A DNA stretch of 43,877 bases, from the NCBI GenBank assembly GCA_022451925.1, contig JAKUNL010000025.1, positions 1 to 43,877 of the forward strand. The letters run 5' to 3'. The position numbers and the translations under genes were made by a program. Below, piece by piece: positions 16,910 to 25,863 of the stretch; position 1 is the first letter of the stretch, and every line of letters starts with the position of its first letter. This stretch comes from Dehalococcoidia bacterium (lineage in GTDB: Bacteria > Chloroflexota > Dehalococcoidia > Lucifugimonadales > UBA3495). The notes under the pieces were generated by a model that was not told the origin of the DNA, made no database searches, and was given only the letters and a program-made list of their open reading frames with translations.

Positions 16910-17590
16910 TTAGAGCTCGAATTCTTTCACATCTGGGGATATGGCCAATATGGCCCCTGTCAGCTGCTGCACCTCTTCTGGTGTCCAACCAGGGGCCACT
17001 TCTTTGAGGGTCAATCCATGTCCGTCGCATTCTATAACGGCTAGATCTGTAACGATCAGATAAACGCACCCTTTACCGGTCAGTGGAAAGGTACATTCCT
17101 GAACAATCTTTGGCTCGCCGTTGCGGTCTGTATGCTCCATAGCGACAATGACTCCAGACGCGCCAGTGGCGAGATCCATGGCTCCACCCACATTGCCAAC
17201 GCCCCGCTGAGGCAACATCCAGTTAGCTAAGTCTCCAGTAGCAGACACTTGATGGGAACCCAGCACCGTAACGTCTACATGCCCACCCCTAATCATAGCA
17301 AACGCCTCAGCAGAGTCGAAAAATGACATGCCATCGATTATCTGCAAGTACTGACCACCTGCGTTGATTAGGTCGATGTCCTCATTCCCCTCTTCAGCCA
17401 GGGGGCCGCAATTCAATATACCGCTCTCGCTATGGTAGAAGACCGTACGACCCTCCGGCACAAAGCTAGAAACCATCGTGGGGATACCAATGCCCAGATT
17501 CACGTAGGAACCGTCGGGCAACTCTTTGGCAACGCGCATTGCCACGATATCCCGCGGCAGACGCTCTTTGTCAGCTAACGATTCCATCAT
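16910..17590 (-). CDS. scoB: class I CoA-transferase subunit B (3-oxoacid CoA-transferase type)
   Basis: The 226-residue protein resembles the beta subunit of succinyl-CoA:3-oxoacid CoA-transferase. It has the oxyanion segment NLGIGIP (31-37) and the catalytic glutamate in YHSESG, Glu55, which forms the glutamyl-CoA thioester. The GxNVGGAMDLATGA and APGWTPEEV segments complete the family pattern. Length is close to the usual 210-220. Two adjacent ATG codons are available (17590 and 17587) behind AAGG. It is the last gene of a three-gene CoA-transferase array, 20 bases after the fused gene. Its natural partner A could be the A half of that fusion or the separate A subunit. The acyl substrate is not readable. 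Confidence 0.9.
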   Translation of the reverse strand: MMESLADKERLPRDIVAMRVAKELPDGSYVNLGIGIPTMVSSFVPEGRTVFYHSESGILNCGPLAEEGNEDIDLINAGGQYLQIIDGMSFFDSAEAFAMIRGGHVDVTVLGSHQVSATGDLANWMLPQRGVGNVGGAMDLATGASGVIVAMEHTDRNGEPKIVQECTFPLTGKGCVYLIVTDLAVIECDGHGLTLKEVAPGWTPEEVQQLTGAILAISPDVKEFEL

Positions 17591-17610
17591 TTGACCTTTT
17601 GTTCGCTCAA

Positions 17611-19011
17611 TTAAATGTCCAAGTAGGCGGAAAAATCAGATGGCCTAACCACAATGCGGTCAACGAATAATCCGGGGGTAATAATCTCTTCTGGACCAAG
17701 CTGGCCTGGTTCCACAATCTCATCCACTTCTACCACTGTCACCTTAGCGGTAGTGGCCATCACTGGGTTGAAGTTTCGGGAAGTACCCTTGTAGACCACG
17801 TTGCCCAGGGTGTCTGCCTTGTGACCACGAATGATACAGTAGTCAGCCCGCAGCCCAGTTTCTAAGACGTAGTCTTTACCGTCAATCGTCCTGGTCTCTT
17901 TGTTATCGCCTAACAGTGTTCCAACCCCCGTCGGGGTGTAGAAAGCCGCCACTCCGGCACCACCGCTTCGAAGACGTTCAGCAAGAGTGCCTTGGGGCAC
18001 TACTTCAAGGTCAGTTTCCCCCCTATTGTAAGCTTCCTCAAATGCGCTGGGACGAGACGCAGACGGAGAGACAGGGTAGGACGCCGTGGCTTTAACCACC
18101 TGATTATTTTCCACTAGTATACTGTGGTCAATGATATTGGGAGAACCAAAGGCGCTGACACGGGCCACACCAGCCGTGTTGCTGATCAACTGTAAGTTCT
18201 TAACACCTAAATCGCGTAGACCAACCATCAGGTAATGCGCCATGCCGCCGGGGCCAGCAAATCCATCAACGTTAATTACTGAGCCTTCTGGTACATCCAG
18301 AAGCGCATCCACAGCACTTGGATAGACTTTGTTGGGAGGGACAATGGCCGGAATATCAACGGTCAATTCCTTTAATCCAGATGAGACGGACAGCGGCGCA
18401 TCGGTAATAGAGATTACGTCCTCAGCAGCCCAACCAGGGGCCGTCTCAATTAACTCCAGACCACTGGCAACTACTTTGATGACTGCAACATCGGTAATAA
18501 TTAAGTCCAGCCGACCCGCTCCGTCCACAGGTAAAGTACATTTCTCTACTATGTTCGAGCGACCGCCTGGTCCCTGGTGGGGCATTACGGCAACCACGGT
18601 AGACGAACCGTAGGCCATGTCTACCGCTGAACCAGGGGCAAATAACCCTGCCGTCTTTTCCGTGGTCCAGTGAACGAAGTCTCCTTTTGTTGAGACTTGC
18701 GATGGCTCCAAAATCGCAACGTCAGTATGCCCACCCCGTAAAATACCGGCCACGTCAACCACGCCGGTAAATGAACCACCAGGGAGCATGGCTACAAGAC
18801 TCCCACCAGCGTCTACCGAGACCCCATCGTTATCTTGGCCTGTATAACCCAGTGCCCCGCTATCCGCTATGAACCAGACACCTCCACTGGCCGGTAGTTC
18901 AAATGGCAAGTGACAAGGTAAACCCATTCCAAGGGCGACAACTGCACCTGGGAATAACTCTTGGGCGGCACGTAGCACCATGTTGGATGATTCTAGCCGA
19001 TTGCCTGGCAT
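17611..19011 (-). CDS. fused CoA-transferase, subunit B-like then subunit A-like
   Basis: The 466-residue protein joins a B-type half (about 1-215) to an A-type half (about 226-466). This is the reverse of the A-then-B order in mammalian SCOT. The B half keeps ALGMGLP (26-32), but where the stand-alone neighbour has YHSESG it reads FIADSG, so the catalytic glutamate aligns with Asp50 without gaps. The A half has VPQGTLAERLRSGGAG (338-353), AFYTPTGVGT and the TLGNVVYKGTSRNFNP segment near 401-416. The start ATG at 19011 follows CGGAGA, 17 bases after the separate A gene. Gene order A, B-A, B suggests a duplicated AB operon whose inner pair fused. It may be a CoA-transferase with altered chemistry, or a thioesterase. 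Confidence 0.88.
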   Translation of the reverse strand: MPGNRLESSNMVLRAAQELFPGAVVALGMGLPCHLPFELPASGGVWFIADSGALGYTGQDNDGVSVDAGGSLVAMLPGGSFTGVVDVAGILRGGHTDVAILEPSQVSTKGDFVHWTTEKTAGLFAPGSAVDMAYGSSTVVAVMPHQGPGGRSNIVEKCTLPVDGAGRLDLIITDVAVIKVVASGLELIETAPGWAAEDVISITDAPLSVSSGLKELTVDIPAIVPPNKVYPSAVDALLDVPEGSVINVDGFAGPGGMAHYLMVGLRDLGVKNLQLISNTAGVARVSAFGSPNIIDHSILVENNQVVKATASYPVSPSASRPSAFEEAYNRGETDLEVVPQGTLAERLRSGGAGVAAFYTPTGVGTLLGDNKETRTIDGKDYVLETGLRADYCIIRGHKADTLGNVVYKGTSRNFNPVMATTAKVTVVEVDEIVEPGQLGPEEIITPGLFVDRIVVRPSDFSAYLDI

Positions 19012-19028
19012 TCCAAAATCTCCGATCG

Positions 19029-19730
19029 TCAGTCCGACAGGACAAGACGGTCAATGAATATCGCTTGGGTAATAACCAATTCAGGATCAATCCCTCCTGG
19101 CTCATGAACGGTGTCGACTTCGGCCACCGTGACTCCTGCGGCCATGGCCATTGTGGGGTTCCAATTACGACTGGTCGCTTGGTAAACCATGTTACCTAGA
19201 GTGTCGGCTACTTCAGCCCTAAGCAGGGCATAATCGGCCTTAAGGGCGAATTCCAACACGTGCTCTCTACCGTCGTATAGGCGCTTTTCTTTATCTTCTG
19301 CAAACCTTGTACCAGCACCACTGGGAAGAAATACCCCGCCGATCCCCGCGCCTCCGGCGCGGAGCCTCTCTGCCAAAACACCTTGTGGGACAATTTCAAG
19401 TTCCAAGTTGCCCGACTCCCAGGCCTTTTTTACCAAACCACCGTACACGGGATGAAACGGCATCGGAGAGATAATCTTCTTGATTTTTCCGGTCGCAACC
19501 AGGTCTGCAATAGTAAAGTCGGTAGATTCTTGAACCCACGCCCCCTGGCAAATCAATGTCAGTTCTGATACCTCAATTTCTGACAGTGCTTGTAGGAGTT
19601 TCTGCGGTATCCCACATCTAGCAAACCCAGCTACCAGTACTGTATCTCCAATGGAAATTCCCTCCAGAGCGTCTTTCCCCGACGGATAGAGTTTGCCATT
19701 TGTTGACGGATTATCTGGGACACTGATCAT
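19029..19730 (-). CDS. scoA: class I CoA-transferase subunit A (3-oxoacid CoA-transferase type)
   Basis: The 233-residue protein matches the alpha subunit of 3-oxoacid CoA-transferases: VAGFARCGIPQKLLQAL (about 33-49), the EIVPQGVLAERLRAGGAG segment, and the CoA-site strand ADTLGNMVYQATSRNWNP. Length is typical (220-235). The ATG at 19730 has AGGA six bases upstream. It leads the array, with a perfect TATAAT about 70 bases ahead, and is followed after 17 bases by the B-A fusion. It could pair with the fused B half or with the terminal B subunit. Confidence 0.9.
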   Translation of the reverse strand: MISVPDNPSTNGKLYPSGKDALEGISIGDTVLVAGFARCGIPQKLLQALSEIEVSELTLICQGAWVQESTDFTIADLVATGKIKKIISPMPFHPVYGGLVKKAWESGNLELEIVPQGVLAERLRAGGAGIGGVFLPSGAGTRFAEDKEKRLYDGREHVLEFALKADYALLRAEVADTLGNMVYQATSRNWNPTMAMAAGVTVAEVDTVHEPGGIDPELVITQAIFIDRLVLSD

Positions 19731-19938: not shown

Positions 19939-21588
<1,650 letters not shown>

Positions 21589-22184: not shown

Positions 22185-22940
22185 ATTACTGAAGACATCC
22201 TAGACCTCGGGCCGGTGACTGTAACTTTGGCTCAAAACGTGGCAACGGTCACAATGAACCAACCCGAGAATGGCAATCGAATCGACAGCGATATGGCTCG
22301 CGCTCTAGCCGAAACATACCGGTTAATCTCCGAATATGACGGTCTGAGGTTAGCCGTTCTATGCGCAAATGGTGACGTTTTCTCTGTCAATGATGGATGT
22401 GACCCACCCCAAACAGCGGGAGCAACGGCGGTAGCTGGCCTTAAGATTCCCTTATTAGCTGTGATAAATGGCGATGCGACCGGACTAGGATTAGAGCTGG
22501 CGCTGACAGCAGATCTCCGCATCAGCGTTACCGCCGCTAAGTTCGGGTTTCCAGACATGTCCAGGGGAGTCATCCCCAAAAACGGCGGCACACAACGGCT
22601 GCCCAGACTCGTAGGGCCGTCTTGGGCCAAAGACATGTTACTCACTGGGCGCATAGTGGACGCCACAGAGGCATTATCCATCGGTCTCGTAAATCGAGTC
22701 GAAGAGAGCCGCGGACAGTTGGCCGTATTAGCCTCTGAAATAACAGAACAGATATCAACGGCCAGCCCCATCAGCGCACGCTATGCCAAAGAAGCGGTCG
22801 GCCATGGAATGGATCTTTCTTTGGAACAGGGTTTAGGACTTGAAGCAGATTTGAACATTATATTGCAATCCACATCGGATAGGGCTGAAGGGGTAAAGTC
22901 CTTTTTGGAAAAACGCCCTCCCAAATTTGACGGCTCTTAG
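22185..22940 (+). CDS. enoyl-CoA hydratase/isomerase family protein, probable ATT start
   Basis: The crotonase-fold protein has about 251 residues. From the GTG at 22215, Glu94 in GLGLELALTADLR is the first catalytic glutamate. The second is Asp114 (FPDMSRGVIP), and the usual CAGADL oxyanion loop reads SVNDGCD, so activity may differ from simple hydration. The GTG lacks a ribosome site. Reading upstream in frame adds ITEDILDLGP, the usual crotonase N-terminus, beginning with ATT at 22185 behind AGAGGAA, five to seven bases away. A stop at 22170 excludes a longer start. I therefore prefer the ATT start; a base error in an ATG is the alternative. It opens the catabolic cluster, divergent from groES. 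Confidence 0.82.
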   Translation: MTEDILDLGPVTVTLAQNVATVTMNQPENGNRIDSDMARALAETYRLISEYDGLRLAVLCANGDVFSVNDGCDPPQTAGATAVAGLKIPLLAVINGDATGLGLELALTADLRISVTAAKFGFPDMSRGVIPKNGGTQRLPRLVGPSWAKDMLLTGRIVDATEALSIGLVNRVEESRGQLAVLASEITEQISTASPISARYAKEAVGHGMDLSLEQGLGLEADLNIILQSTSDRAEGVKSFLEKRPPKFDGS

Positions 22941-22975
22941 ACGATGACTTATCAAGTGATATAAAAGGAATTCTT

Positions 22976-23521
22976 TTGAAATTAAAACTAGACCTCCATA
23001 CCCATCCCTGGGAGGCTTTCAATTTTGTACCTCCAACAGTGGACATCGCGGAGAAAATTGTTAATCAAATCAAATCTCGGGGTATAGATGGAATCGGTAT
23101 CACCGACCACCACAACAAGGAATGGGGAATGGAACTCCGGGAAATAGTGGAAAAGCACTTTCCGGGACAGGTCGTCATCCTGCCCGGGTGGGAGATCGAG
23201 ATTCGCCCAAAGGCCAACCCATTCGCCGAGTACCAGGTGGCAGAACTCTACCTACCGGACGGCGGAGGGGTTTTCCGTACTTACTGCCATCCCGGCTATT
23301 ACTCACCTGAGATATTAATCGAACCAAACATCCATGCGATTGAGATAGACAACTACATCCACAACTGGCACATCCGCAAAGACCAAGTCTCAGAAATAGC
23401 GTCAGAGCACGACCTGATATTGATGGAAGTGAGCGACGCCCACAACCTTGAGAATATCGGTCTACGCTACACCGAAATAGATCTAGACGAACTTTACGCC
23501 AGGGCTGTTCCGGAGGCCTAA
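22976..23521 (+). CDS. PHP-domain metal-dependent hydrolase-like protein
   Basis: The 181-residue protein has the full PHP metal-ligand set: DLHTH (6-10), TDHH (43-46), Glu73 in GWEIEI, His105 in CHPG, and SDAH (153-156). PHP proteins are phosphoesterases, often phosphatases or nucleases, with a trinuclear metal site. The protein is only the bare domain, shorter than histidinol phosphatase and with no polymerase. The TTG at 22976 has AGGA seven bases upstream. It lies between two crotonase genes in the same orientation (35 and 9 base gaps), an unusual place for a phosphoesterase. A small-molecule hydrolase of the pathway is possible but not shown. Confidence 0.85.
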   Translation: MKLKLDLHTHPWEAFNFVPPTVDIAEKIVNQIKSRGIDGIGITDHHNKEWGMELREIVEKHFPGQVVILPGWEIEIRPKANPFAEYQVAELYLPDGGGVFRTYCHPGYYSPEILIEPNIHAIEIDNYIHNWHIRKDQVSEIASEHDLILMEVSDAHNLENIGLRYTEIDLDELYARAVPEA

Positions 23522-23530
23522 GCCCATCTC

Positions 23531-24256
23531 ATGTCGGATAAAGGCAGGTTCCAAACGCTCCTGTTCGAGAAAAAAGGAGCATTGGCCCATATCTCGTTAA
23601 ACCGTCCTAGAGTAGTGAACGCCTACAACATCCAAATGCGGGATGATTTCTCAGAAGCATTATTTGCCGTTGAGTTAGATTCGGACGTGCGTGCACTATT
23701 GATAACCGGGCAAGGCCGTGGTTTCTGCGCTGGAGCAGACTTAACGGAGTTTGGTTCAGCACCATCTCAGGTGATTGCCCGTCAGGTGCGTTGGGAAAGA
23801 GACGTTTGGGGGCAACTGATAAACTTGAGCAAGCCTACAGTAGCCGCTCTGCATGGCTATTGCATCGGATCCGGCTTGGAGATAGCCCTTCTCTGCGACG
23901 TAAGGATCTCAGCCGCACGAACATTATTTGCGCTGCCGGAGATACAGTTGGGTATGATTCCAGCGGCAGGCGGCACCCAATCACTTCCCAGAACAATCGG
24001 CTCATCCCAGTCAATGGACCTGCTTCTGACCGGACGACGAATCCAAGCCGAAGAGGCCCTCGCACTGGGTCTGGTGACGCGTATAGTTTCTCCGGAATCA
24101 CTTCTGGATGAAGCCTGGCTGCTAGCCAACAGATTAGCCGATCTACCAGTTGCACCAGTCGCCGCATTGAAACAGTTGCTGAGGCAGGGGATGGACTTAG
24201 ACCTACCACAGGCGCTTGAATTAGAGAGTAGGGTAACCGCTAGGTTATCCACCTGA
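23531..24256 (+). CDS. enoyl-CoA hydratase/isomerase family protein with short C-terminus
   Basis: The 241-residue crotonase has intact signatures: oxyanion loop GFCAGADL (64-71), Glu117 in GSGLEIALLCD and Glu137 in PEIQLGMIP followed by AAGGTQSLPR. Both catalytic glutamates point to genuine enoyl-CoA hydration, unlike the neighbour at 22185. The protein ends at ESRVTARLST, where relatives continue about 25 residues through a FLEKRxPxF tail. I found no continuation in another frame downstream. It begins only nine bases after the PHP gene and 44 bases before the ligase gene. Confidence 0.9.
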   Translation: MSDKGRFQTLLFEKKGALAHISLNRPRVVNAYNIQMRDDFSEALFAVELDSDVRALLITGQGRGFCAGADLTEFGSAPSQVIARQVRWERDVWGQLINLSKPTVAALHGYCIGSGLEIALLCDVRISAARTLFALPEIQLGMIPAAGGTQSLPRTIGSSQSMDLLLTGRRIQAEEALALGLVTRIVSPESLLDEAWLLANRLADLPVAPVAALKQLLRQGMDLDLPQALELESRVTARLST

Positions 24257-24300
24257 ATAATCATGCTAGATACAAAAAGAAATAGACGGGAAATGAACTG

Positions 24301-25863
24301 ATGAACACATCTGAATTCTTGACCATCGCAGGCGCCATAGTCCCCGAACGCGCCGCAGTGGTATTCGACGGCCAGACCATAACATTCGCAGACTTGGCGG
24401 AACGGGTCAACCGACTGGCCAACGGCCTATCTCGTTTAGGAGTTGGCCAAGGAGACCGAGTAGCCACCATGCAAGTTAACACCAACCAATGCATTGAGAC
24501 GTATTTCGCAGCTGCACAGCTTGACGCCATATATGTGCCAATCAACTTTCGTGCCAAGACGGAAGAACTGGCCCAGATGCTGAAGATTTCAGAACCAACA
24601 TGTCTCTTGCTAGGGGAACGTTACCTACCGTTGGTCCCAGAAAGCATGCAGTCCTCGGGGGAAATAATAATCCTAGACGGCGACCCAGTATCTAGCTCTA
24701 CAAACTATGAAACCCTTCTTACTGAGTCATCTCCGGATCAACTACATTTCCCTGAGGCTGGAGATGAAGACACCACCGTAATCATGTTCACTGCAGGTAC
24801 GACGGGCGTCCCCAAAGGTGTCATGCTTACCCACGCCAGCTTTTCTTCATACCTGTTAGCCACAGTCGAACCAGCCGATCCGGATATTGAAGAAAGCAAC
24901 CTCATAACAGTCCCTTTCTACCACATCGCAGGACTACAGGCCGCTCTCGCGGCAGTTTACGGTGGACGCACATTGGTGGTTATGCGCCAGTTCGATGCCG
25001 GGGAGTGGCTGCATCTGGTCCAAGAAAACCAAGCCAACCGCGCCATGTTGGTGCCCACCATGTTGAAGCACCTGATGGAGCATCCCAAGTTCGAGGATTA
25101 CGACCTATCATCTCTTGGAGTCATAACCTATGGTGCCGCTCCAATGCCATTGGAAGTCATACGAGAAGCCATTGGGAAATTCCCCGGCGTACGGTTCATC
25201 AACGCATTTGGTCAGACTGAGACCGCATCGACAATCACTATGTTACCTCCGGACGACCACGTACTAAACGGAAGCCAAACTGAGATAGAGACCAAACTGA
25301 AACGTCTTACATCCATCGGAAAACCGCTCGAAGATGTAGAAGTCGATATCGTGGATGAAGAAGGTCAGTCTGTTGCCGTTGGCGAAAACGGCGAGATCGT
25401 GGCAAGGGGATCGCGAATGATGGCGGGTTATTGGCACGAAGAATCAGCAACCCAAGAAACAATGCGGAGCGGCTGGATATATACCGGAGACCTAGGTTAT
25501 CAAGACGAGGATGGTTACATATATCTATCAGGCCGAGCTAAAGATTTCATCAAGCGCGGAGGAGAGATGGTTTCTCCTGAGGAAGTGGAACAGGTACTCC
25601 GCTCCCATCCATTGTTGGACGACGCAGCCGTTATCGGAGTGCCCGACGTCGAATGGGGTGAGGAAGTCAGAGCAGTGGTGGTCAGCAATGCCGAAAACAC
25701 AAACGAAGAACTGATCATAGAGTTCTGCCGAGACCGGTTAGCCGGGTTTAAGCGACCGCGTTCCGTTATCTTTGTTAGGGAGCTGCCTCGCAACGTCATG
25801 GGCAAGGTACTAAAGCGCGACCTCCGTGAAGAGTTCGGTTACCCGGTGGAAAACCGTGAATAG
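24301..25863 (+). CDS. acyl-CoA synthetase (AMP-forming, class I adenylate-forming)
   Basis: The 520-residue ligase activates a carboxylic acid with ATP to acyl-AMP and then acyl-CoA. Motifs are TAGTTGVPKG (164-173), the YHIAGLQ loop, GAAPMP, FGQTE, YTGDLGYQDEDGY, the hinge AKDFIKRGGE, and the A10 motif PRNVMGKVLK with Lys502. Length is normal for medium/long-chain or aromatic acid ligases; the substrate cannot be told. The ribosome site before the ATG at 24301 is weak. It is the probable entry enzyme of the cluster. Confidence 0.93.
   Translation: MNTSEFLTIAGAIVPERAAVVFDGQTITFADLAERVNRLANGLSRLGVGQGDRVATMQVNTNQCIETYFAAAQLDAIYVPINFRAKTEELAQMLKISEPTCLLLGERYLPLVPESMQSSGEIIILDGDPVSSSTNYETLLTESSPDQLHFPEAGDEDTTVIMFTAGTTGVPKGVMLTHASFSSYLLATVEPADPDIEESNLITVPFYHIAGLQAALAAVYGGRTLVVMRQFDAGEWLHLVQENQANRAMLVPTMLKHLMEHPKFEDYDLSSLGVITYGAAPMPLEVIREAIGKFPGVRFINAFGQTETASTITMLPPDDHVLNGSQTEIETKLKRLTSIGKPLEDVEVDIVDEEGQSVAVGENGEIVARGSRMMAGYWHEESATQETMRSGWIYTGDLGYQDEDGYIYLSGRAKDFIKRGGEMVSPEEVEQVLRSHPLLDDAAVIGVPDVEWGEEVRAVVVSNAENTNEELIIEFCRDRLAGFKRPRSVIFVRELPRNVMGKVLKRDLREEFGYPVENRE

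Follow-up and report, generated by a model that had tools for sequence, protein, structure and literature searches.

We analyzed a 43,877-nucleotide stretch of DNA (below, the window means this whole stretch) and found on its minus strand three consecutive genes for class I CoA-transferase subunits: an A subunit, a protein in which a B half (B') precedes an A half (A'), and a B subunit. We refer to A and B' as the outer pair, and to A' and B as the core pair. Sequence comparison across related genomes leads us to think it probable that A' and B form a working CoA-transferase, covalently tied to a decayed A+B' heterodimer that would act as its structural or allosteric partner. The features on which the argument rests are the following:

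19029..19730, minus strand: outer A subunit, 233 aa; putative partner of the fused B'; acid-binding site partly decayed (Gln at the CtfA Asn50 position)
17611..19011, minus strand: fused B'-A' protein, 466 aa; supported by ORF, Pfam, NCBIfam, conservation in 40 genomes, and AlphaFold
18358..19011, minus strand: B' half, aa 1-218; decayed B subunit (Asn22 to Ala, Glu46 to Asp, SCOT Gly386 to Ser, CoA-phosphate contacts altered)
18862..18864, minus strand: GAT codon for Asp50 of B', which alignment to CtfB matches with the catalytic Glu of class I CoA-transferases
17614..18357, minus strand: A' half, aa 219-466; core A subunit, conserved, in which the Phe24, Asn50 and Gln98 equivalents are intact
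16910..17590, minus strand: core B subunit, 226 aa; active-site Asn, Glu and Gly-Gly intact
17426..17428, minus strand: catalytic Glu55 codon of core B (GAG, motif SESG)

The ORF scan returned the three genes exactly at the coordinates given in a preliminary description of this DNA, separated from one another by 17 and 20 bp, and the domain order from Pfam and NCBIfam bears out the A / B-A / B array claimed there. All three proteins match PF01144 (CoA_trans), the middle one over two stretches, and all four domains score as class I CoA-transferases, above the cut-off of 23 bits (A 140.3, A' 175.7, B 141.4, B' 38). In NCBIfam, the middle protein has a B half at aa 9-208 (TIGR02428) and, behind it, an A half at aa 227-455 (TIGR02429). 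The chain order is thus B-A, the reverse of the SCOT-type fusion (A domain before B domain), as had been noted from the sequence. Both A domains exceed the cut-off of 128.5 bits for TIGR02429, 3-oxoacid CoA-transferase subunit A (outer A 208.8, A' 228.9 bits). Against TIGR02428, 3-oxoacid CoA-transferase subunit B, with its curated cut-off of 243.55 bits, core B scores above (291.9 bits) and fused B' below (136.4 bits). The same genome carries a second, ordinary AB operon on another contig.

To compare the two sites, we placed the active-site residues by alignment to Thermosipho CtfAB (numbering according to PMC12400318 and the chain) and to SCOT, writing the B site as Asn22, Glu46, then Gly-Gly (SCOT Gly386), and the A site as Phe24, Asn50, Gln98. 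Wherever they can be read in the fused genomes, the core sites are NEGG in B and FNQ in A', the residues of an active enzyme: Asn22, Glu46 and the SCOT Gly386 equivalent are each present in 44/44 fused loci for core B, and Phe24, Asn50 and Gln98 each in 45/45 for A'. The PROSITE signature PS01723, in the form quoted in PMC12400318, does not match A', which reads VDGFAGPGGMAH and is one residue longer; the unfused core operons of the order also have the lengthened loop as their standard form. Throughout this core A' subfamily of the order (window 17614-18357; loci L117-L135) the acid-site loop is GF[AG]GPGG, one residue longer than GGFxxxGxP. The longer loop may mark a different substrate.

The outer pair of the window reads ADGS (B') and FQQ (A), and so departs from the residues of an active enzyme. 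Over 45 fused loci, the catalytic position of B' is occupied by Glu in 13, Asp in 20, Ala in 5, Asn in 4 and other residues in 3, while Asn22 is kept in 5/45 and the SCOT Gly386 equivalent in 9/45; in outer A, the CtfA Asn50 residue is kept in 4/45, Phe24 in 19/45 and Gln98 in 35/45. The outer sites are complete (NEGG/FNQ) in one fused family, f15, and in three genomes where the genes are unfused (G024, G020, G035). The remaining fused loci have substitutions at the N50 equivalent of A and, G009 excepted, at the N22 equivalent of B', and their Glu46 position holds D, E, A, N, G, T or H; G009 has a complete B' but Tyr and Gly in A. Outside f15, moreover, the basic residues of B' at the CoA-phosphate contacts are mostly lost, with one residue gained there, and the outer domains of some genomes (G122, G185, G003) have diverged to an extreme degree. 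The preliminary description suggested that the bridging protein could join two partial active sites; instead, the A'+B site is complete and invariant, and the A+B' site is decayed.

Might the decayed pair still catalyze, or have acquired, a reaction of its own? The simplest such case is acyl-CoA hydrolysis by the Asp, which would make the assembly a bifunctional transferase and hydrolase. Asp occupies the catalytic position of B' in the window and in most of its genus, and the engineered E46D variant of Thermosipho CtfB is an acyl-CoA hydrolase, E46S being dead (PMC12400318). Other reactions have also been described for class I folds that have replaced the Glu: with Cys there, AibA/AibB acts as a decarboxylase (PMC7756340), and with Gly, IpdAB acts as a ring-opening hydrolase (PMC5380842). 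Against hydrolysis, however, the B' position varies among D, E, A, N, G and T even inside a single family, which weakens the case for Asp as a conserved natural hydrolase, and Asn22, which holds D46 in CtfB, is replaced in B'. The oxyanion Gly386, the acid-binding Asn50 and the CoA-phosphate contacts are lost jointly; in AarC, Gly388 of the external oxyanion hole lies within a part that is strictly conserved across the superfamily (PMC4876117). Nor did we see a new invariant catalytic residue at the positions examined. We therefore regard an independent chemistry of the outer pair as unlikely, although it is the best placed of the alternatives to a non-catalytic partner. Residual hydrolase activity is possible in several genomes that have Glu or Asp left at the catalytic position of B'.

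The fusion-bearing group consists of uncultivated marine Chloroflexota, relatives of SAR202. The preliminary description had proposed a database search for B-A fusions with flanking A and B genes, and this search found them: full-length B'A' occurs in 40/197 genomes of the order (counted from the search table), and the order A / fusion / B is kept in nearly all carriers with readable flanks. The carriers comprise 33/36 genomes of the window's own family (f1), four genomes plus a contig-edge piece of f15, two genomes of f10 and a single genome of f4. B'A' is missing from three f1 genomes, which are 77-85% complete, and some carriers are one-contig assemblies. In one genome (G067; L171, 16468-17157) the outer A is encoded on the opposite strand, ∼12 kb away from the fusion, and its active-site residues are still complete. 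A wider search at E <= 1e-90, covering 294 genomes from the class and 301 from the phylum, gave zero matches except the window itself, no further member of a carrier family being among the genomes listed in these samples. Among the best 80 loci of the genome_contigs collection, A and B outside the fused Chloroflexota set are separate genes wherever both are read. In the A tree, every fused A' half, together with one contig-edge piece, falls in a single clade (support 98), so the fusion most likely arose once. An assembly artefact or a frameshift joining two genes is ruled out by the presence of the fusion in 40 genomes and its one origin.

Relatives in which the genes are unfused help to order the events. 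In many families of the order the sole array is a separate operon of the core type, A'B. G035 has an outer-type AB and a core AB on two separate contigs (L172, L185). In G024 (L122) and G020 (L128), four separate genes stand in a row, A-B-A'-B. A stop between the B and A halves in relatives, which the preliminary description named as grounds for rejecting its interpretation, is thus found in these two genomes; judged from their sequences, the two arrays look like the pre-fusion state. The A-B-A-B ancestry proposed there stands accordingly, but its two further steps fare less well. First, the fusion is unlikely to have come about by simply losing the inner stop. The first B and the next A' overlap by GTGA in L122, and in L128 the TAG of the first B is followed by 4 nt and then the ATG of A', in both cases with the two genes in different frames, so that for such an ancestor stop loss alone would have been insufficient and a frame change also needed. 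Second, a recent tandem duplication of AB is unsupported by the free tree of concatenated A+B, in which core pairs are grouped (99) and outer pairs are grouped (98) with other-phylum sequences and a third paralog between them, the reference set having been picked by similarity to the fusion and being skewed to the core type. Forcing core and outer pairs into a common clade costs 5.5 log-likelihood units and is not rejected (p-AU 0.385). Whichever origin holds, the two AB pairs appear from these sequences to be old paralogs, older than the carrier families.

Since the outer site is complete in the unfused arrays and in fused f15, and incomplete in the other fused loci, the decay is placed by these genomes after the fusion. 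Outside f1, the outer pair of L167 (G046) and L168 (G003) is also decayed, with different replacements, and G009 (L186), of the same family as G046, retains a complete B'. The decay of the outer site may, to judge by the residues, have occurred more than once.

We then asked whether selection still acts on the decayed pair. Pairwise dN/dS values, from unsaturated synonymous sites, are 0.08-0.27 for A, 0.14-0.47 for B', 0.04-0.11 for A' and 0.02-0.14 for B: all four domains are under purifying selection, and the outer A and B' are less constrained than A' and B. These values bear on whether the outer pair is a functionless passenger in the course of being lost, retained since B' is fused ahead of A'. 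Its faster evolution, its lost active site and the extreme divergence in the genomes mentioned above would fit a passenger, but a dN/dS of 0.08-0.47 for A and B' would not. The separate A gene, moreover, is under no forced retention and yet adjoins the fusion in nearly all readable genomes, and the glycine two residues beyond the catalytic position of B' is present in 45/45 loci. A mere passenger is, in our judgement, improbable.

Which A works with which B? We fitted the branch lengths of the four domains on one topology and computed partial rank correlations of their rates. The partial correlation is 0.72 for A-B' (p 5e-14) and 0.43 for A'-B (p 9e-5), p-values that serve as guides, the branches being only partly independent; the other pairings give 0.08-0.29, A-B being weakly positive at 0.29. 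In a branch bootstrap, the difference between partners and cross pairings was >0 in 99.7% of resamples and <=0 in 0.3%. This rate covariation, which is correlative, together with the joint decay of A and B', suggests that B' is the partner of A, and B the partner of A', in agreement with the pairing suggested in the preliminary description.

An AlphaFold model of B'-A' has a mean pLDDT of 83.1 and a pTM of 0.84, with low-pLDDT loops of B' that include 58-71 and 117-124; it is a model of a single chain, and is compatible with B' packing on its own A' or with B' and A' bridging two heterodimers. By fold comparison, the A' half matches the class I A subunit 3cdk_A (Z 29.2, rmsd 2.4, 224 aligned) and the B' half matches CtfB, 9cry_B (Z 25.3, rmsd 2.6, 208 aligned), so that in the model both halves of the fusion retain the class I fold. 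In SCOT, both domains of one chain build the active site. The fusion might likewise be a circularly permuted SCOT, with B' and A' of one chain paired and the separate A and B forming a second heterodimer, and the pTM of the single-chain model is in its favor. Each site would then combine a decayed half with an intact one, yet A' and B are both invariant while A and B' decay jointly; in addition, the rates covary within A-B' and within A'-B, and the operon that occurs alone in relatives is A'-B. We give a permuted SCOT as little credence as the passenger. That both pairs are working CoA-transferases brought together, perhaps for different substrates, is the least probable reading of all. In the unfused arrays and in fused f15 both sites are complete, and there likely to work as judged from sequence, but the outer site is without several needed residues in the window's genus and in nearly all other fused families.

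The reading that we prefer, an active core pair tied to a decayed outer pair, implies the following course of events. The sequences themselves show its first steps: an A-B-A-B array that is still unfused in relatives, a single event that joined the inner B' and A', and loss of the catalytic residues of A and B' afterwards in most fused lineages, with A' and B remaining invariant and purifying selection persisting on all four domains. The B'-A' chain would bridge two heterodimers into an asymmetric four-domain assembly, A:B'-A':B, the presumed counterpart of the usual (AB)2 heterotetramer; CtfAB crystals are reported to contain such a heterotetramer of two AB pairs (PMC12400318). The decayed half would have stopped transferring CoA and would be kept as a structural or allosteric partner. 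A' and B are predicted, as the likely reaction, to transfer CoA between acyl-CoA and carboxylate via a glutamyl-CoA thioester. The neighboring genes fit a role in acyl-CoA metabolism: many fused genomes share two enoyl-CoA hydratases, a PHP-like protein and an AMP-binding acyl-CoA ligase (window 22215-25863). The groEL gene lies near the array in 23/32 fused loci examined (in the window, at 19939-21567).

A stronger version, to which we grant somewhat less than an even chance, is that CoA-transferase activity depends on the tethered decayed heterodimer (a "prozyme" pair) and that the genomes show each step. The series would run, just as tentatively, from separate operons through adjacent operons and a fusion with two complete sites to a fusion with one site lost. 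With earlier states surviving in relatives, the order of events, fusion and then decay, may be read from genomes, a natural series in which an enzyme could be followed as it turns into a non-catalytic partner; why an enzyme retains its dead twin becomes a directly testable question. If our reading is true, neither a pseudoenzyme pair of class I CoA-transferases nor a fusion of that family with B ahead of A would, so far as our limited search of the literature goes, have been described before. A text search of the literature for CoA-transferases with pseudoenzymes or reversed fusions found nothing, most subscription journals lying outside its scope, and the SAR202 genome paper covers CoA-transferases of the CaiB/BaiF type, the word "fusion" being absent from it (PMC5395668). 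There is also a warning for annotation: the middle gene would be named a CoA-transferase, though half of it has lost its active site.

It is instructive to compare the array with known systems. The two-subunit class I enzymes CtfAB, ScoAB, AtoDA and PcaIJ share its domains, and A' and B hold all the catalytic residues tested; here, in contrast, two different AB pairs are joined through B'-A', and one site is lost. Mammalian SCOT (OXCT1) likewise has both subunit types in one chain, but in the order A-B, whereas here B precedes A, each half derives from a different AB pair, and the fusion is flanked by free-standing A and B genes. IpdAB and AibA/AibB also have a class I fold in which the catalytic Glu is replaced; they are stand-alone enzymes with new chemistry, while in B' the residue at this position is variable and the A+B' pair is attached to an intact enzyme. 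BbsCD is reported to combine active and catalytically dead paralogs in a heterotetramer, the same principle as proposed here. Both BbsCD and the trypanosomatid deoxyhypusine synthase are unrelated to CoA-transferases and have no covalent fusion. In the deoxyhypusine synthase, activation of the active partner by the dead paralog has been measured (PMC3663545), whereas the array described here is known from sequence; with its active subunits and dead paralogs joined in a heterotetramer, that enzyme offers the closest working principle to the one we propose.
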